A stretch of 48,403 bases of DNA from Pseudoflavonifractor sp. An184. GTDB lineage: Bacteria > Bacillota > Clostridia > Oscillospirales > Oscillospiraceae. Location of the stretch: positions 1 through 48,403 of the forward strand of contig NZ_NFKI01000026.1 in NCBI RefSeq assembly GCF_002160305.1, read 5' to 3'. A model generated the notes under the pieces. That model made no database searches, was not told the origin of the DNA, and saw only the letters and a list, made by a program, of their open reading frames with translations. Position numbers and translations under genes: made by a program. Numbering within the stretch: position 1 is the stretch's first letter; each line of letters begins with the position of its first letter. This document shows, piece by piece, positions 32,929 to 39,739 of the stretch.

Positions 32929-33372
32929 TCAGCCGATGGCGATGGTCGTGCTCTTGGGCAGCTCCTTCTTCTCCTGCTTGGGCAGGGAGATCTTCAGGAT
33001 GCCGTCCTCGTACTTGGCCGAGATCTGCTCGGGCTGGATATCGCCCACGTAGAAGCTCCGGCTCATGGCGCCGGCGTAGCGCTCCTGACGGATATACTTG
33101 CCCTCCTTGTCCTTCTGGTCCTTGTCCAGGCCCTTGGAGGCGCTGATGGTCAGGTAGCCGTCCTTCAGGTCCACGTCGATCTCGTCCTTCTTGAAGCCGG
33201 GCAGGTCGATGTCCACCTCATAGGTGTTCTCGGTCTCCCGCACGTCGGTCTTCATCAGGTTCTTGGCGTGCTTGCCATACAGAGGATTGCGGCCGCCCCA
33301 CACGGGGAAGCGCATAAAGTCATCGTCAAAGAAATCATCAAACAAACTTTCACCAAACATGCTGGGCAACAT
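32929..33372 (-). CDS. hsp20: Small heat shock protein, Hsp20/alpha-crystallin family
   Basis: The 147-residue chaperone has an Asp/Phe-rich N-terminus (FDDFFDDDFMRFP), an alpha-crystallin domain (TDVRETENTYEVDIDLPGFK through KYEDGILKISLPK) and a C-terminal tail with the TIAI variant of the I-x-I/V anchor. It binds unfolding proteins to stop aggregation. A CIRCE element overlaps its promoter, so HrcA should repress it. The ATG at 33372 lies about 85 bases after the predicted transcription start. Confidence 0.95.
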   Translation of the reverse strand: MLPSMFGESLFDDFFDDDFMRFPVWGGRNPLYGKHAKNLMKTDVRETENTYEVDIDLPGFKKDEIDVDLKDGYLTISASKGLDKDQKDKEGKYIRQERYAGAMSRSFYVGDIQPEQISAKYEDGILKISLPKQEKKELPKSTTIAIG

Positions 33373-33461: not shown

Positions 33462-33504
33462 GTTATAGCACGTTGAATTAGCACTGTCAAGCGGAGAGTG
33501 CTAA
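33462..33504 (-). promoter_or_regulatory. CIRCE operator over the hsp20 promoter
   Basis: TTAGCACTG, 9 bases, GAGTGCTAA at 33478-33504 is a CIRCE element with one mismatch to the 9-9-9 consensus. On the minus strand TTGACA (33485-33490) and TATAAC (33462-33467) are spaced by 17 bases, so bound HrcA would cover the -35. Confidence 0.95.
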
Positions 33505-33579: not shown

Positions 33580-35040
33580 TTACATTTCTTCCCGCGCCGC
33601 GCCCCCCGCCGCGGCGGCCAGCGCGGCGTCCTGCCGCCCCTCCGCGCGCTCCAGGTCCTCAAAGTCCCCCAGGGCCCGCAGGTCCACATGGGAGGCGTCC
33701 ACCCCTGCGTCCGGGTGCTCCGCCCGCTGGGCCAGGGTGGAGGGGAAGGTCCCCTCCAGCTGTCCCCGGACGCTTTCGGAGCGCAGGCGGCACACCTCCA
33801 GCAGGGTATCCACCGCCAGCAGGTGGTCCTCATAGGAGCAGAAGGCAGTGGGGTCGGCCTCCACATAGGGGGCGATGAGGGCCTGCGTCTCCCGGATGAC
33901 CGCCTCACACCGTCCGCTCTCCAGGTACTCCGCCAGGAACTGGCCGAAATAGGCGTGGTACCGGGCAAAATATTCGTCGTTCTTCATCAGGTTGTGGTAG
34001 AGGGGCCGCTCCAGCATGGTCTCTCCCCGGGCGGGGGTGTTGATGGGCCAGTTGAGGAGCACGTCGGGGTCCCGGATGGGGTCGGTCATCCCCAGGGCGT
34101 AGGTGCCGAAGGCCAGATTGTAGTCCCAGGGCAGGATGGAGAGCACCCCGTCCTCCTCATAGAGGAAGTAGTTGTGGCCCGTGTGACCCAGATAGCTGTC
34201 CCAGTTCATCACGAACACCTGCACCACAAAGTACCGCAGCACCTCGTCCACATTCACCGCCGTCTCCAGGTCCTCCCCGGAGGCCAGAGTCTTCAGGGCC
34301 TGGATGAGCCGGGCCTGGTCCGCCCCGTCCACATCGAACTTGGCGTTGTCGAAAATGTTGGGATAGCGCTCCGGGCCGCCGCCCGCATAGCGCAGGGCCA
34401 CGTCGGCGTTCTCGGCGTTCAGGGAGGTGTAGTCCGGCTTGTAGAGCTGCCCGTGGTCCGCCCCGAAATTCCGCCGGGCAAAGGCCTCCTCTGGCTCCTC
34501 AATGGCCAGGAACAGCCCCCAGGGGGAGCCGTTCACCGTCACCCACACGAAGCTCCGCAGGGGGGCGGGCACCCCCATGTACTCCATCATGTCGTAGACC
34601 AGATAGGTTTTCAGATAGCTGTTGTCCTGAAAGGAGGCGTCCAGGGAGAATTTGTCCAGGCCGTGGTAATTTCCCCCGTCCACATAGTGGTCAAACTCCA
34701 GCTTCAGGCTGTGCCGGGCAAGGCCGTACTCCTCCGTCAGCCGCAGGGAGTTGTTCCCCTTGGCCCGCAGGCCCACCTGGCGGAACTCCTCCCCGTCCAC
34801 GGACACCGTACAGGGGATGTACTCCTCCTCCGGCGCCTCCGCGATAAACTGCGCCCAGTCCTCCGCCTGAATGTCCACGGTGTGGACCCGGCTGTCATCG
34901 AACAGGCGGTATGCATATTCCGGGGCGGCGGAGGCGGGCTGGAGGCCCAGGGCCTCCCCGAAGAAGAGCAGGCCGGTGAGGACCAGGGCCAGTACCATGG
35001 CCAGGGCGCACAGCCGGTCGATCTGTCTGTGGCGGATCAT
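33580..35040 (-). CDS. CotH kinase family protein
   Basis: The 486-residue protein has an N-terminal signal anchor (residues 9-33) and then the CotH fold: VGLRAKGNNSLR near residue 92, LKLEFDHY, the DNSYLKTYLVYDMMEYMGVPAP block, VWVTVNGSPWGLFLAIEE, YKPDY, and the catalytic/metal-binding LSILPWDYNLAFG. CotH is an atypical kinase that phosphorylates spore-coat protein CotB in Bacillus. This copy is outside the membrane by topology. It is the last gene of the SigI operon and starts only five bases after DUF4956. Confidence 0.93.
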   Translation of the reverse strand: MIRHRQIDRLCALAMVLALVLTGLLFFGEALGLQPASAAPEYAYRLFDDSRVHTVDIQAEDWAQFIAEAPEEEYIPCTVSVDGEEFRQVGLRAKGNNSLRLTEEYGLARHSLKLEFDHYVDGGNYHGLDKFSLDASFQDNSYLKTYLVYDMMEYMGVPAPLRSFVWVTVNGSPWGLFLAIEEPEEAFARRNFGADHGQLYKPDYTSLNAENADVALRYAGGGPERYPNIFDNAKFDVDGADQARLIQALKTLASGEDLETAVNVDEVLRYFVVQVFVMNWDSYLGHTGHNYFLYEEDGVLSILPWDYNLAFGTYALGMTDPIRDPDVLLNWPINTPARGETMLERPLYHNLMKNDEYFARYHAYFGQFLAEYLESGRCEAVIRETQALIAPYVEADPTAFCSYEDHLLAVDTLLEVCRLRSESVRGQLEGTFPSTLAQRAEHPDAGVDASHVDLRALGDFEDLERAEGRQDAALAAAAGGAAREEM

Positions 35041-35044
35041 GGTC

Positions 35045-35719
35045 TCAGCCCATGTAGTCCCCGTTGTAGGAGACCAGGACCACGTGGTCCACCCCCGACA
35101 TGGCCCCCAGCTCGTTGACGAAGCCGGTGTCCGCCTCCCGCAGGCGCACCTCGAAGTTCAGCTCGATCTCCCCCGGGGAGACCGCCTTGCTCTTCAGGTT
35201 CAGGCGGCGCACCCGGGCCTCCACCAGGGCGCGGACCTGCTCCTCCTCCCGGGGGGAGGCGCAGCGCACCACCAGAATATAGGGGGACTCCCCGTTCTTC
35301 TGCCGGGAGAACACCAGCAGCACCGCCCCCACAAAGAGGCTCCCCAGCACCGCCAGGGGGATGAGTCCCGCCGCCAGCACGATGCCCGCCGCGATGGACC
35401 AGAACAGGAAGGCGATGTCCATGGGCTCCTTGATGGCGGTGCGGAACCGGACGATGGACAGGGCGCCCACCATGCCCAGGGAGAGGACGATGTTGCTGGT
35501 CACCGCCAGAATGAGCAGGGTGGTGATGAGGGTGAGGGCGATGAGAGTCACCCCGAAGCTGGGGGAGTACATGACCCCGCTGTAACTTCTCTTGTACACC
35601 AGGAAGATGAACAGCCCCAGAAGAAAGGCCAGCACAAGGGCCAGAGCGGTGTCCAGCAGGGAGACGCTGTCCAGCCGCTCCAGAAAGCTGGATTTGAAGA
35701 TGTCCTGAAAGGTGGTCAT
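35045..35719 (-). CDS. DUF4956 membrane protein
   Basis: The 224-residue protein has four to five membrane helices in residues 25-140, with the signature GMVGALSIVRFRTAIKEPMDIAFLFWSIAAG typical of DUF4956 (quoted here across two adjoining halves), and a C-terminal cytoplasmic alpha/beta domain. DUF4956 genes often lie next to VTC polyphosphate-polymerase and CotH genes in bacteria, exactly as here. Molecular role unknown; a membrane link for polyphosphate or phosphate transfer is a guess. AAGGAG precedes the ATG at 35719. Confidence 0.9.
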   Translation of the reverse strand: MTTFQDIFKSSFLERLDSVSLLDTALALVLAFLLGLFIFLVYKRSYSGVMYSPSFGVTLIALTLITTLLILAVTSNIVLSLGMVGALSIVRFRTAIKEPMDIAFLFWSIAAGIVLAAGLIPLAVLGSLFVGAVLLVFSRQKNGESPYILVVRCASPREEEQVRALVEARVRRLNLKSKAVSPGEIELNFEVRLREADTGFVNELGAMSGVDHVVLVSYNGDYMG

Positions 35720-35743
35720 GGGAAGGCCACTCCTTACCTTAAT

Positions 35744-36412
35744 TTAGTCGTACCGGCGGCACAGGGCGTACTTGGAACAGGCGGCCGCCCTGCGGTTGGG
35801 GATCTGGACGGCCATACGCACCAGATCGGGCAGAAAGGCGTCGTACTTGACCTCCAGCACCGTGAGGCCGGAGAGGGGCTTGAGGAAGAACCGCTCCGGG
35901 CGGAAAAAATCCAGCGGGCTCAGCCCGGTGCGGACCTCCCGGTCCAGGGTGATGCGCACATTGCCGGGGGCGTACAGAAATGCCTCCCGGTCGTAGCAGA
36001 CCGCCGTCCGGGGGGCCAGGAGGCTCCCCCGCAGCTTGTGGTACAGCTCGGCCAGCAGGGGCTCCTCCCGCTCCAGAAGGAAGTCCGGCTCTCCGGCCAG
36101 CAGCCGCTCCCCCTCCTCCCGGGAGAGGCGGGCGGAGCGCTTGCCGCACAGGCCGTTCACCTTGAACTTCTTCTCCAGCTTCAGCCAGTTGGGATCATCT
36201 CCGTAGTACCGCAGGCGGAACTTCTCCCGGCGGTCCACCCCGTCCAGCTTCTCCCGGAGGGCGGCGTCATAGGGGGTGTCCAAATACAGGCTGGTCACCC
36301 GGTAGGAGCCGTCCGCCCCCGCGTGCTTATCGTGGGGAAACAGGCGGCGCAGCCGCCCGGAGAGCACCAGATCCTCCGGGGGAGAGATCTGGTGCTTGAG
36401 CTCGTGGCGCAT
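35744..36412 (-). CDS. VTC domain polyphosphate polymerase-like protein
   Basis: The protein has 222 residues from the ATG at 36412; the longer upstream frame reads into the Asp-rich gene in another frame and is rejected. The VTC tunnel-fold motifs are present: RHELKHQ at the start, TSLYLDTPYD, KFRLRYYG, KLEKKFKVNGLCGKRSA (basic residues that bind polyphosphate), ITLDREVRTG, and LEVKYDAFLP (metal-ligand Glu). In yeast Vtc4 this domain makes polyphosphate from ATP. The start is 11 bases after the lipoprotein stop with no strong ribosome site, so coupling is likely. Confidence 0.9.
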   Translation of the reverse strand: MRHELKHQISPPEDLVLSGRLRRLFPHDKHAGADGSYRVTSLYLDTPYDAALREKLDGVDRREKFRLRYYGDDPNWLKLEKKFKVNGLCGKRSARLSREEGERLLAGEPDFLLEREEPLLAELYHKLRGSLLAPRTAVCYDREAFLYAPGNVRITLDREVRTGLSPLDFFRPERFFLKPLSGLTVLEVKYDAFLPDLVRMAVQIPNRRAAACSKYALCRRYD

Positions 36413-36422
36413 TGGGGCGGGC

Positions 36423-37673
36423 TCAGTCGTCCCAGTCATCGTCGTCGTCATCGTCGTCCCAATCGTCGTCGTCATCATCGTCCCAGTCGTCGCTGTCACT
36501 GGGGTAGTCGGAGCCGGTGGGGTCCCCGTACCAGTCGTCGTCATCGTAATCGGTGACGCCGTCCGCATTCGGGCCGTAGTCCGTGTCGTCATAGTCGGTC
36601 ACCCCGTCCGCGTTGGGACCGTAGTCGGTGTCGTCGTAGTCAGTGACGCCGTCGTTGTTGGGGCCGTAGTCGGTGTCATCGTAGTCGGTGACCCCGTCGG
36701 CGTTGGGGCCGTAGTCCGTGTCGTCGTAGTCGGTCACCCCGTCGGCGTTGGGGCCATAGTCCGTGTCGTCGTAGTCGGTCACCCCGTCGGCGTTGGGGCC
36801 GTAGTCCGTGTCGTCATAGTCGGTCACCCCGTCCGCGTTGGGGCCGTAATCGGTGTCGTCATAGTTGGCGGCGGGGACAGCGGTCCCGGCAGAGGCATTG
36901 TAGTCGGTGACGCCGTCCCCATAGGGACCGTAGTCGGTGTCGTCGTAGTCCTGGTATTCGGCGTCCATCTCGGTGACCTTGCCGGTGACGGCGTTCACCT
37001 CGTACTCGTACTCCACGCCGTCCATGACAAACTCCACCTCGTACTCCCCGTCGTCCAGGTCGTACTCCTTCTCCACAAACTGGATGTCATCCCGGCCCAG
37101 CTGAGTGGAGAGGATATTCTGGGCGGCGGCGGCGTTGATGTAGCCCTTGTCCCCGTAGGTATCGTCGTAGTCGTCGCTGTCCAGGGCCACGGTCTGGGAG
37201 CCGATCTGGTCGGCCTCCACCACCAGGCGGACGGCCTCGGCCAGCTCGTTCAGGAACTGGTCATTGGGGTAGGCGGAGCCCCGCTCCAGCTTGAGCACGA
37301 TGTTCTTCTCGTGCCCGTCGATGGTGGCGTCAAAGTAGCCCCCGGCGTTGATCTCATCCACCAGCTCCCCCACCACGGTGGCGCAGGGCTTTCCCTCATA
37401 GCCGGTGTAGGAGGCCAGCACCGCTTTTCCGTCCTCATTGAGGCCGGTGAGGGCCACCACATTGCCCACCTTGTCGTAGTCCATCTCGATCTCCGGGTTG
37501 ACGCTGAGCAGCACGGTGCCCACGCTGCCGCCGTCCCCGCTCTGGAGGGCGGACCCGGAGGCGGTTCCGGAGGAGGCCGCCGCTCCGCCGTTCCCACAGG
37601 CGGTCAGAGTGGTCAGGGTCAGGGCGGTCACCAGGGTCAGTCCAAACAGCTTGGCGGTGAAGTTCGTTTTCAT
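36423..37673 (-). CDS. Lipoprotein with RsgI-like domain, PepSY-like segment and Asp-rich repeats
   Basis: The protein has 416 residues from the ATG at 37673 (AAGGAG nine bases upstream). A lipoprotein signal ends LTTLTAC, lipidated Cys26. Residues 50-135 resemble the RsgI extracytoplasmic domain, including the Asn59-Pro60 pair in LLSVNPEIEMDYDKVG and GLNEDGKAVL. A PepSY-like segment (YEVEFVMDGVEYEYEVNAVT) lies near 205-225. Residues about 241-376 hold eight copies of a 15-residue repeat, DTDYGPNADGVTDYD, and the tail is almost pure Asp/Trp. It lacks the RsgI cytoplasmic domain. A SigI-like promoter precedes it. Confidence 0.85.
   Translation of the reverse strand: MKTNFTAKLFGLTLVTALTLTTLTACGNGGAAASSGTASGSALQSGDGGSVGTVLLSVNPEIEMDYDKVGNVVALTGLNEDGKAVLASYTGYEGKPCATVVGELVDEINAGGYFDATIDGHEKNIVLKLERGSAYPNDQFLNELAEAVRLVVEADQIGSQTVALDSDDYDDTYGDKGYINAAAAQNILSTQLGRDDIQFVEKEYDLDDGEYEVEFVMDGVEYEYEVNAVTGKVTEMDAEYQDYDDTDYGPYGDGVTDYNASAGTAVPAANYDDTDYGPNADGVTDYDDTDYGPNADGVTDYDDTDYGPNADGVTDYDDTDYGPNADGVTDYDDTDYGPNNDGVTDYDDTDYGPNADGVTDYDDTDYGPNADGVTDYDDDDWYGDPTGSDYPSDSDDWDDDDDDDWDDDDDDDDWDD
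36547..36951 (-). repeat. Tandem 45-bp coding repeats in the lipoprotein gene
   Basis: Seven contiguous 45-base units plus one separated unit encode DTDYGPNADGVTDYD-type repeats. The units are nearly identical in protein but vary at third positions, suggesting selection on the protein sequence. Confidence 0.9.
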
Positions 37674-37784
37674 AACATTCATCTCCTTAAATTTGTCATG
37701 TCTGTATGAGCTGCCGGTTCCGGGCCAGGGATGGCTCCGCACACGGCGCGCCGGGAATTTCCCGTCTCTCTTTGTTTTACATCC

Positions 37785-37818
37785 GAAGAATACGGGGGCC
37801 GGAGGGAAAAACCGGGGT
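37785..37818 (-). promoter_or_regulatory. Candidate SigI promoter of the lipoprotein gene
   Basis: On the minus strand ACCCC, 19 bases, CGTATTCTTC. The site before sigI has the same two blocks and the same spacing. ACCCC and CGTA resemble the -35 and -10 of SigI promoters known from Bacillus and Clostridium thermocellum. Confidence 0.75.
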
Positions 37819-37846
37819 CGCTGGAAAAAACTTTTTATTTTTTCTG

Positions 37847-38941
37847 TCAGTCGTCATCGTCCCCATCATCGTCGTTTTCGCCGTCATCATCGCGGTCGTC
37901 ATCGTCATCGTCATCCCCGCCGTCGTCCTCCCGGTCCTCATAGTCGGTCACGCCGTCATAGTAGGGGCCGGAGGACGGTTCCGTGTAGTCGGTGATTCCG
38001 TCCGCATTGGGGCCGTAGTCCGTGTCCGCGTAGTCGGTGACCCCGTCCGCGTTGGGGCCGTAGTCCGTGTCGTCGTAGTCGGTCACCCCGTCCGCGTTGG
38101 GGCCGTAGTCCGTGTCCGCATAGTCGGTGACCCCGTCGGCGTTGGGGCCGTAGTCGGTGTCCGCGTAGTCGGTGACCCCGTCGGCGTTGGGGCCGTAATC
38201 TGTGTCATCGTAGTCGGTGATCCCATCCGCACCGGGGCCGTAGTCCGTGTCCTCCTGCCCGCCGGAACCGGCGCTGGGGTCCGCCGCCGTCCCCGGGGTC
38301 TGCTCGGGGACCTGGGGCGTGACCGGCACCACCACCTCCGCCGGCTCCTCCGGAGAGCCGGCGGGCTGCGTCTGATCTGCCGCGCCGCCCAGCTGAATGA
38401 CGATGGCCGCGCCGTACCGCTCCTCCAGCTGAGCCTGGACCTGGGCCTCCTCCCGGGCCTGCCAGTCCGCGTCCGAGCTGCTGACGGTGATGGAGATGGT
38501 GTCCCCATCGGAGAGATAGCCCATGTCGATGGCCCGCTCCACCAGCTCGCCGGCGGCGGTCTCCCGGTCCTTGCCCCGATAGTCGTACCCCTCGATCAGA
38601 TCCTCGCCGTCGGCGTTGAGCCCCTCCAGGTCCAGCACCCGGTCGGTGCGGCTGACGGTCATCTCCACGTCCGGGTTGATCTGGATGCGCAGGGTGCCGT
38701 AGGCGGTGTAGTTGGGCTGGTAGTACCCAAAGAACACCAGGCAGAGGCAGGCGGCCGCGGCGGCCAGCCCGGACAGGGGCTTCCACAGGGCGGGGGCCCT
38801 GGGCCTCGCCTGCCGGAGCTCCACGATGTGCTGGACGGTGTCGCCCACCCGGTATTGCAGGTTGGCCGCCTTGAGGAACCGGCCCTCCTCGTCCAGCACC
38901 ACCGCGTAGGCGGGGTGGGTCTCCATGACCAGATACTTCAT
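37847..38941 (-). CDS. rsgI: RsgI-type anti-sigma factor with Asp-rich repeats
   Basis: The protein has 364 residues from the ATG at 38941 (GGAGGGG upstream). Residues 1-45 form the RsgI N-terminal domain that binds SigI (MKYLVMETHPAYAVVLDEEG). Residues 56-74 are a membrane helix. Residues 82-165 form the conserved extracytoplasmic domain with Asn89-Pro90 in IQINPDVEM, the site of self-cleavage reported for RsgI proteins. Residues about 230-335 carry seven copies of the DTDYGPNADGVTDY repeat, and the end is poly-Asp. It overlaps sigI by 4 bases. Cellulolytic clostridia have carbohydrate-binding modules in place of these repeats. Confidence 0.93.
   Translation of the reverse strand: MKYLVMETHPAYAVVLDEEGRFLKAANLQYRVGDTVQHIVELRQARPRAPALWKPLSGLAAAAACLCLVFFGYYQPNYTAYGTLRIQINPDVEMTVSRTDRVLDLEGLNADGEDLIEGYDYRGKDRETAAGELVERAIDMGYLSDGDTISITVSSSDADWQAREEAQVQAQLEERYGAAIVIQLGGAADQTQPAGSPEEPAEVVVPVTPQVPEQTPGTAADPSAGSGGQEDTDYGPGADGITDYDDTDYGPNADGVTDYADTDYGPNADGVTDYADTDYGPNADGVTDYDDTDYGPNADGVTDYADTDYGPNADGITDYTEPSSGPYYDGVTDYEDREDDGGDDDDDDDRDDDGENDDDGDDDD
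37936..38254 (-). repeat. Tandem 45-bp coding repeats in rsgI
   Basis: Six good and one degenerate unit encode DTDYGPNADGVTDY(A/D). They match the lipoprotein repeats closely, so the two tracts probably arose by duplication or are kept alike by recombination. Confidence 0.9.
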
Positions 38942-39678
38942 TTCCGTTCCCCTCCTCTCCCGGGGCCGATTTGACACAGGTGCCCCCGAATGATTTCATA
39001 TCCGTTGGTGAAGGCCAGCAAAATGGCCACCAGGTACTTCCGGTGCCGCTCCAGGGTCTTCCGCTCCGTACCCGAGCCAAGGGCCAGTTCGTTCATGGGC
39101 AGCTTTCCGGTCTCCGCCACCTTGTTCAGCAGCTCCGGGTTCGCCCGGGCGTAGTCCAGCACCCGGCGGCAGGCGGCCAGCGTCCGGTCCTGGCGTGGGC
39201 AGTTGTCCGCCACATCGGAGAAGGAGAGCCCGAACCGGGCCAGCTGGGCGCCGAACTCCTGGATCTCCGCCTGGCTGGCGGTGCGCTGCTCATAGGCGCC
39301 GATCTCGTCCCGGTGGTCCGGCAGGGCGTCCAGCAGATGCCCGCTCTCCTCGTCGCCCCCGGCGGGCGCGTGGAGGGAGATCACATTCCCGTGGCGGCGC
39401 TCGGTCCGGTAGTGGTCGATGAGCCGGTTTTTGATGGCCCGGGCCGCGTAGGGGAGAAAGGCCCCCCGGTGCTTCTCATAGCTCAGGACCGCCTCGTAAA
39501 AAGCCAGCATGGCGATGCTCAGCTCGTCCTCGTGTCCGTCCTCCGGGGCGGCGTGGATGAATTTTACCGTCTCGCTGCGGATGAACCCCATGTACTGCCC
39601 GATCAGGGCGTCCGCCGCCTCCGGGTCCGTCTTCGCCGCGTACACCTGTCCCACGATGCTGTGTTCCGTGCCTACCAT
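38938..39678 (-). CDS. sigI: RNA polymerase sigma factor SigI
   Basis: The 246-residue protein matches SigI in length and layout. Region 2 is MGFIRSETVKFI with ELSIAMLAFYEAVLSYEKHRGAFLPYAARAIKNRLIDHYR (cited in parts). The C-terminal SigI-specific DNA-binding part includes LPMNELALGSGTERKTLERHRKYLVAILLAFTNGYE (cited in parts). SigI is held at the membrane by RsgI and released by cleavage of RsgI. A promoter of SigI type lies 28-61 bases upstream, so it should amplify its own synthesis. Confidence 0.94.
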   Translation of the reverse strand: MVGTEHSIVGQVYAAKTDPEAADALIGQYMGFIRSETVKFIHAAPEDGHEDELSIAMLAFYEAVLSYEKHRGAFLPYAARAIKNRLIDHYRTERRHGNVISLHAPAGGDEESGHLLDALPDHRDEIGAYEQRTASQAEIQEFGAQLARFGLSFSDVADNCPRQDRTLAACRRVLDYARANPELLNKVAETGKLPMNELALGSGTERKTLERHRKYLVAILLAFTNGYEIIRGHLCQIGPGRGGERK

Positions 39679-39705: not shown

Positions 39706-39739
39706 GAAGAATACGGAGCCTCCGCCGGATATTCGGGGT
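39706..39739 (-). promoter_or_regulatory. Candidate autoregulatory SigI promoter
   Basis: On the minus strand ACCCC (39735-39739), 19 bases, CGTATTCTTC (39706-39715). Predicted transcription would start about 25 bases before the sigI ATG. The match with 37785-37818 in both blocks and spacing is the main support. Confidence 0.78.

Follow-up and report, generated by a model that had tools for sequence, protein, structure and literature searches.

A predicted SigI/RsgI circuit joining a CotH-type kinase to an RsgI-like repeat lipoprotein in Pseudoflavonifractor sp. An184

The window analysed here is a contig stretch of 48,403 nucleotides (nt) from the gut bacterium Pseudoflavonifractor sp. An184 (NZ_NFKI01000026.1). 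At 33580-39678 it carries six genes, all on the minus strand, which encode a SigI-family sigma factor, its anti-sigma factor RsgI, a repeat-bearing lipoprotein, a VTC-domain protein, a DUF4956 protein and a CotH-type kinase (Table 1). A preliminary description of this DNA had named the same six families, and the family matches confirmed it. It had also described the genes as closely spaced or overlapping in a single operon. The short distances hold, with a 4-nt overlap (ATGA) between sigI and rsgI and gaps of 10 nt between the lipoprotein and VTC genes, 24 nt between the VTC and DUF4956 genes and 4 nt between the DUF4956 and CotH genes. However, rsgI is separated from the lipoprotein gene by 173 nt containing a further predicted promoter, and the single six-gene operon was replaced by two units with a predicted promoter each, sigI-rsgI and lipoprotein-VTC-DUF4956-cotH. 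No terminator-like site was found on the minus strand between rsgI and the lipoprotein gene, so read-through is possible. A sigma-70 promoter scan gave one match only, on the opposite strand.

The overlap of the VTC and lipoprotein genes is probably false. The VTC reading frame of 282 amino acids (aa) opens within the lipoprotein repeats in another frame; the likely start of the protein is MRHELKH at 36412, which leaves no overlap. The second open frame through the lipoprotein repeats (36413-36592, minus strand) puts a false threonine-rich N-terminus on the VTC frame. At one related locus, L152, the lipoprotein frame itself continues into VTC.

Table 1. Genes, predicted promoters and repeat features of the SigI/RsgI locus, in the direction of transcription.
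Feature	Position	Strand	Remarks
SigI-type promoter of sigI-rsgI	39712..39738	-	CCCCG-AATAT...CGTA, A-tract type
sigI, SigI-family sigma factor, 246 aa	38938..39678	-	sigma-70 region 2 above cut-off; SigI models best but below cut-off
rsgI, membrane anti-sigma factor, 364 aa	37847..38941	-	RsgI_N-like start, one hydrophobic segment (by eye), RsgI_M, acidic repeat tail
RsgI Asn-Pro codons, residues 89-90, predicted autocleavage site	38672..38677	-	matching Pro is the first residue of solved RsgI1 chain 8hep_B
RsgI tail tandem repeats, 45 bp = 15 aa, DTDYGPNADGVTDYA type	37934..38252	-	repeat detection
SigI-type promoter of lipoprotein unit	37791..37817	-	CCCCGGTTTT...CGTA, T-tract type
lipoprotein, 416 aa	36423..37673	-	lipobox LTAC (by eye), RsgI_M with Asn-Pro, PepSY, acidic repeat tail
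lipoprotein tail tandem repeats, 45 bp = 15 aa, DTDYGPNADGVTDYD	36540..36865	-	repeat detection
VTC-domain protein, 222 aa	35744..36412	-	distant relative of yeast VTC4 polyphosphate polymerase
DUF4956 membrane protein, 224 aa	35045..35719	-	low-confidence model: helices and MgtC/ACT-like C-terminal domain
cotH, CotH/Fam20C-like kinase, 486 aa	33580..35040	-	hydrophobic N-terminus (by eye); both catalytic Asp kept

Fifty related loci were retrieved from a collection of 84,980 species by a scan that used a SigI alignment and required one of two 8-residue patterns. RsgI followed SigI in all 50, some of them cut, and the lipoprotein was found in 42, the contigs of the remaining 8 ending first. 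CotH adjoined in 29; it was not found beside four (L141-L144, where only about 1 kb follows in L143), and 17 contigs were cut too early. Since the gene set recurs in related loci, in Oscillospiraceae as well as in Lachnospiraceae, the linkage goes beyond chance and beyond this strain. The arrangement in Lachnospiraceae is mostly divergent: at seven loci of this family sigI-rsgI and the lipoprotein unit point away from each other, with both promoters kept, one of these loci (L146) showing a CCCT variant. Most Lachnospiraceae rows are separate from Oscillospiraceae on the tree of SigI and RsgI, and L156, a long row, lies somewhere on the Oscillospiraceae side of a starred branch (99/96). Within the genus, a close lipoprotein (at least 78% identity) was found in 6 of 64 genomes, the source genome included. 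One genome of the six, G010, contains the complete locus twice, in diverged forms (L045 and L046) whose SigI proteins are about 78% and 91% identical to that of the window. A search for plasmid carriage with the SigI protein gave four plasmid records only, at 25-32% identity and all with Bacillaceae-type names.

SigI matched Sigma70_r2 above the Pfam cut-off, and its ten best NCBIfam matches were all SigI models, each under its own cut-off (best 154 bits over residues 6-233; TIGR02895 132.5 against 185). In RsgI, the RsgI_M domain was matched clearly (PF23750, E=2e-22) and the N-terminus resembled RsgI_N (PF12791, 20.5 bits, E=4e-4, under the Pfam cut-off of 25). The asparagine-proline (Asn-Pro) pair of the predicted autocleavage site is retained in at least 48 of 49 related RsgI rows; a script matched all 49, but the match in L155 was spurious. 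No carbohydrate-binding module was matched in RsgI (Pfam, E up to 0.1), and the tail consists instead of acidic repeats. In Clostridium thermocellum the RsgI domain is reported to autocleave, RseP and ClpXP completing the signal, with RsgI8 as an exception (PMC12203970), and B. subtilis RsgI to be cleaved constitutively, the fragments remaining associated until a defect in the cell wall is sensed (PMC10202637, a review citing Brunet et al. 2022).

The lipoprotein is, judged by its sequence, an RsgI look-alike that has the same autocleavage-type domain with the Asn-Pro kept and is without the sigma-binding part. Its Pfam matches over cut-off were RsgI_M (3e-15) and PepSY (1e-7) and nothing else; RsgI_N gave no Pfam match, and we therefore term the protein RsgI-like rather than RsgI. 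Its profile matched B. subtilis RsgI (8t9n, 7e-7) from the Asn-Pro onward. The five best of 560 solved-structure matches to its model (predicted local distance difference test, pLDDT, 75) were RsgI autocleavage-domain chains, two of them at E<0.001. Asn-Pro was present in all 36 lipoproteins, of the 42, that a script could test, and four more (L144, L150, L154, L155) show it when printed; in the Lachnospiraceae rows the alignment ends ahead of the PepSY part. Tandem repeats with a period of 45 bp encode the tails of both proteins; the lipoprotein gene has 7.2 copies with 88% matches, and rsgI has 7.1 with 83%. These had been regarded as a calcium-repeat sensor, a view that was given up, as neither the lipoprotein nor RsgI matched the EF-hand, dockerin or thrombospondin-3 families (Pfam, E up to 0.1); weak calcium-binding-protein-1 matches (E about 0.5-0.8) fell on the folded part of the lipoprotein and not on its tail. 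The RsgI-like nature of the lipoprotein, the two promoters and a motif common to both tails, described below, go beyond the preliminary description.

On inspection by eye, CCCCG-...-CGTATTCTTC was noticed ahead of sigI and again ahead of the lipoprotein gene. The pattern CCCC-N18..20-CGTA was then searched in 330-nt upstream stretches, with 200 first-order Markov shuffles as the null. It was present upstream of sigI in 48 of 50 cases (the window and 49 loci; shuffle mean 0.40, maximum 3 in 200) and upstream of the lipoprotein gene in 43 of 43 (the window and 42 loci; shuffle mean 0.36, maximum 3 in 200), counts that take in the window and near copies such as L120/L121 and that omit L140 for sigI (5' end cut) and L099 for the lipoprotein gene (start cut). 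The pattern was missing upstream of sigI in L153, in which the end of cotH lies immediately ahead of sigI, and in L146, where CCCT replaces CCCC. Both window promoters fit the published SigI consensus, given as ACCCCC..CGAA in Bacillales and CCCYYAAA..CGWA for C. thermocellum SigI3 (PMC4711584). The lipoprotein promoter is doubled in tandem in 25 of the 43 loci and is single in the window.

The bases after CCCCG differ between the two promoter sets. Across L107-L156, with one presumed sigma factor, an A-tract follows mostly in sigI promoters, which are mostly CCCCGAAAAT, and a T-tract in lipoprotein promoters, which are mostly CCCCGGTTTT or CCCCGTTTTT. SigI promoters are described as combining an A-tract with CGWA, A-tracts being typical (PMC10575876), whereas the lipoprotein promoter of the window has a T-tract instead.

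VTC genes with no SigI in the stretch retrieved around them served as a control. The pattern was directly upstream in 0 of 23, the region just before VTC being the one covered; VTC was not confirmed as the first gene in all 23, and one of them, L049, is the contig edge of a genome with a SigI set on another contig. Three SigI-linked VTC genes did not show the pattern just upstream either, because their promoter precedes the lipoprotein gene. In the genome of the source strain, a stricter pattern that demands three A/T bases, and that looser sites would escape, gave 6 matches against 6 for a reversed control. Two of the six belong to the present locus, and the four outside it were set aside as candidates for a wider regulon. 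Since the matches are at control level, the regulon looks local, confined to this one locus within the limits of the stricter pattern. Taken together, the conserved predicted promoters strongly support control of both units by SigI, including autoregulation of sigI, in line with the control of the lipoprotein-VTC-DUF4956-CotH set that had been proposed for the locus.

The kinase gene was assigned to the CotH family (PF08757, E=3e-59). Its aspartates D280 and D305 (281 and 306 when counted from the ATG), which lie 25 residues apart, align with two aspartates of the solved CotH structure 5jd9 lying 23 apart and are invariant in 14 of 14 sequences. Changes at Asp228 or Asp251 abolish the activity of B. 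subtilis CotH (PMC7821199), and from the matching 23-residue spacing in 5jd9 we take D280 and D305 as the counterparts of these residues. The same enzyme is reported to polyphosphorylate the disordered serine repeats of CotB and to phosphorylate CotG (PMC7821199).

Comparison of the acidic tails of RsgI and of the lipoprotein revealed a common motif, [S/T]-x-Y, with serine or threonine two residues before tyrosine. The tails were pooled from 24 of the 30 loci at which CotH adjoins SigI (the window counted), leaving out the near copies L107, L120, L121, L128 and L135 and the run-on locus L152. In 14 loci of the Oscillospiraceae type, 82% of the RsgI-tail tyrosines and 90% of the lipoprotein-tail tyrosines stand in the motif (89 and 223, against 15.4 and 30.5 after shuffling). 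The corresponding shares are 86% and 86% in L138 (6 and 18, against shuffled means of 0.8 and 4.9) and 83% and 95% in nine Lachnospiraceae loci (40 and 171, against 8.8 and 30.9). Single RsgI tails vary, with one of five tyrosines in the motif in L151 and two of four in L150.

The motif was absent at six loci for which no CotH of the clade was found. At the four loci without adjoining CotH (L141-L144), none of 41 lipoprotein-tail tyrosines stands in it. Genome searches with PF08757 did not find CotH in the genomes of L141, L143, L144 and L132, and found a partial one of another type in that of L142. The RsgI tail of L132 is motif-free, as is that of L145, whose genome has only a 41%-identical CotH elsewhere. 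Among 48 scored loci, the window included, 39 have a CotH of the clade together with the motif, six have neither, three have the motif only, and none has CotH without the motif; in this scoring L147 was dropped (contig end), L114 and L127 had no motif status (RsgI cut), and L125 and L137 counted as CotH-present, as the same genomes carry CotH on other contigs (L099 and L049). This association suggests that CotH phosphorylates the tails of both the lipoprotein and RsgI, albeit from few independent events. A kinase acting on an acidic repeat protein had also been part of the preliminary description, and the association points in that direction.

A rival explanation is that the RsgI tail is a disordered envelope probe whose acidic repeats act as spacers; composition would matter, [S/T]-x-Y would be inherited, and the target of CotH would lie elsewhere. 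The low complexity and acidity of the tails agree with it, and B. subtilis RsgI, cleaved constitutively and held until a cell-wall defect occurs, is a reported precedent (PMC10202637). It accounts less well for the [S/T]-x-Y spacing kept in tails whose repeats are otherwise different (L138 and the Lachnospiraceae loci), for a motif common to two proteins of one locus, and for its absence at the six loci where no CotH of the clade was found. We consider this explanation rather unlikely. In the 2022 study by Brunet and colleagues, the tail of B. subtilis RsgI is reported to be disordered.

Several points weigh against the link between CotH and the tails and against the promoter evidence. The three motif-only loci (L109 and L130, from one draft bin, and L118) are from draft bins in which no CotH of the clade was found, and the contigs of L132 and L145 stop soon after rsgI. 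On the tree, the motif-CotH association amounts to about four changes, and an independent-pairs test on the starred branches gave two concordant, no contrary and three undifferentiated pairs (p = 0.5), a test that is underpowered. The tails at CotH-less loci are wholly different repeats (QYDDDWDD and the like), so the loss of the motif may be a by-product; moreover, tyrosines inside one repeat array are not independent of each other. As regards the promoters, the pattern was defined after its two copies in the window had been seen, and the window is therefore not independent evidence; in addition, several loci nearly duplicate one another.

The VTC protein (PF09359, 4e-28) is a distant relative of yeast VTC4. 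Its alignment profile matched 3g3q with E=5e-4 (independent E-value of the best stretch 0.008), with the R.R and E.K stretches aligned; a single-sequence phmmer search against solved structures found nothing. DUF4956 (family match E=1e-11) may carry an MgtC-like ACT domain according to its fold match, which is only a lead since the model is of low confidence (pLDDT 67). Both genes are present at 27 of the 29 loci where CotH adjoins SigI. The other two, L153 and L156, have the lipoprotein and CotH only and keep the [S/T]-x-Y motif; we therefore treat VTC and DUF4956 as accessory. Other VTC/DUF4956 copies exist elsewhere in these two genomes (L168, L169), so polyphosphate may be involved there too.

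These data also bear on the earlier view of the locus as a calcium- or phosphate-sensing module, in which polyphosphate made by VTC and exported by DUF4956 is loaded on an acidic surface protein. The presence of both genes at 27 of 29 loci and the relationship to VTC4 speak for such a module. It fits poorly with L153 and L156, even with copies elsewhere in their genomes, and with the lack of any matched calcium-binding family. Polyphosphate loading as the core function was consequently dropped, and we regard the module as improbable. A further proposal is that the locus modifies exopolysaccharide or a biofilm matrix, CotH being a small-molecule or glycan kinase. CotH, polyphosphate polymerase and DUF4956 are reported beside pel operons in streptococci, clostridia and bifidobacteria (PMC7112168), and a glycosyltransferase is listed in the NELoc-2 locus of Clostridium perfringens (PMC2879425). 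No polysaccharide gene was found among the six genes or the four flanking genes scanned, and at L153 and L156 the set comes down to sigma factor, anti-sigma factor, lipoprotein and kinase; a role in matrix modification thus seems equally improbable.

The reading that we favour, as somewhat likelier to be true than false, is a self-contained sigma-I circuit for a repeat lipoprotein phosphorylated by CotH, in which RsgI bears the same acceptor repeats and possibly reads the result. SigI would drive sigI-rsgI and lipoprotein-VTC-DUF4956-cotH from promoters of one pattern, with no other convincing target in the genome. By homology, RsgI would retain SigI at the membrane and cut itself at the Asn-Pro outside the cell, its pieces staying together; removal of the outer piece would lead to cleavage by RseP and ClpXP and to the release of SigI. 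We infer that exported CotH phosphorylates serine or threonine in the [S/T]-x-Y repeats both of the lipoprotein and of the RsgI tail. The RsgI tail would then signal whether the lipoprotein layer is bare, phosphorylated or bound to something, and would set SigI output accordingly. The main substrate of CotH would be the lipoprotein, which would also act as a surface partner or decoy of RsgI, and VTC and DUF4956, as optional accessories, probably make and export polyphosphate.

A stronger form of this proposal places the sigma factor under extracellular protein phosphorylation: CotH would mark the RsgI repeats, with feedback through autocleavage on the kinase and substrate genes and with the lipoprotein twin as decoy or partner. 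We consider this form possible, but would lean against it at present. If the favoured reading is right, the locus is a compact, culturable system that joins extracellular Ser/Thr phosphorylation with transmembrane sigma control, with promoters, kinase, predicted substrate and predicted sites defined. It would open to experiment both the substrates of CotH kinases outside spores and the signals sensed by RsgI proteins that lack carbohydrate-binding modules.

Comparison with known systems demonstrated both similarities and differences. The SigI/RsgI systems of C. thermocellum, which control the cellulosome, share with the window a SigI-type sigma factor, an RsgI with an autocleavage-type domain and autoregulated promoters of the CCC..CGWA type (PMC4711584). 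Unlike them, the window RsgI has an acidic [S/T]-x-Y tail with no carbohydrate-binding domain matched in Pfam, and the predicted regulon is apparently one locus that includes a lipoprotein twin of RsgI. B. subtilis RsgI has the same autocleavage domain (8t9n) and an outer part that senses cell-wall defects (PMC10202637), whereas the linked targets in the window are a lipoprotein-kinase set and not cell-wall genes. In the CotB/CotG/CotH module of the B. subtilis spore coat, a CotH kinase is likewise linked to disordered tandem-repeat substrates, which are polyphosphorylated there (PMC7821199) and predicted here; the window differs in its acidic rather than Ser/Lys/Arg repeats, its SigI-type promoters and a sensor that itself bears repeats.

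A related gene set in print is NELoc-2, described in C. perfringens strains from avian necrotic enteritis and in one ovine strain (PMC2879425). Its table, published in 2010, lists SigI, a 348-aa predicted cell-wall protein, two VTC proteins, two membrane proteins of 222-226 aa and CotH (PMC2879425); the membrane proteins, named tubulin/FtsZ there, are equated with DUF4956 by size and place only. In contrast to the window, the VTC pair is duplicated with a resolvase between, and there are extra genes, including the glycosyltransferase. The association of SigI, VTC and CotH was thus already in print, and no regulatory link is discussed in the parts of PMC2879425 that we consulted. In addition, C. 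thermocellum SigI6 activates cseP, a cellulosomal CotH-dockerin gene, in a B. subtilis test system (PMC4711584). The placement of these genes under SigI, which had been called unusual, is tempered by both cases. A limited literature search returned no paper combining RsgI and polyphosphate, and in the portions of the sources covered neither the pair of promoters nor the RsgI-like lipoprotein nor the motif common to both tails was mentioned; all of these may be in print elsewhere.

The effector trio also occurs without SigI in the same genus and order. In the genus survey, DUF4956 was found in 29 of 60 genomes searched, the source genome included; of 35 stretches around DUF4956 genes, 26 contain VTC (>60 bits), and 3 of these 26 also contain a SigI of the window clade. 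The SigI-less VTC-DUF4956-CotH trios have the same three effectors, with DUF4956 about 64-70% identical in the closer ones. They differ in that response regulator and/or histidine kinase genes adjoin several of them (by eye) in place of SigI-RsgI and that the SigI-type pattern was not found before VTC.

The record titles of the related loci were read for host labels. Poultry-suggestive labels, assigned by a name pattern of our own and without a host baseline, occur in 36 of the 50 titles, for Oscillospiraceae and Lachnospiraceae as named by submitters; most were read from names only, and 14 titles have no such label. Four of the 36 consist of 'Coassembly_mag' alone, which we take to denote a chicken source. 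Six of the carrier strains (An10, An76, An82, An100, An196 and An306) are chicken caecum isolates (PMC6069880). Together with the similar set in avian C. perfringens, the poultry-gut labels hint at a niche role, again without a host baseline.

Two further observations were made outside the locus. In a genome of the same genus (L103, 2889-5191), a sigma factor of 193 aa, by eye of the extracytoplasmic function (ECF) type, is followed by a protein of 574 aa; the latter, again by eye, combines a hydrophobic segment with an Asn-Pro domain resembling RsgI_M and several stretches resembling PepSY. ECF sigma factors may thus be served by RsgI-like outer domains as well. In the window, cotH is followed by an hsp20 gene (32929-33372), upstream of which lies TTAGCACTC-N9-CAGTGCTAA (33478-33504, minus strand), a CIRCE-like (HrcA) operator.

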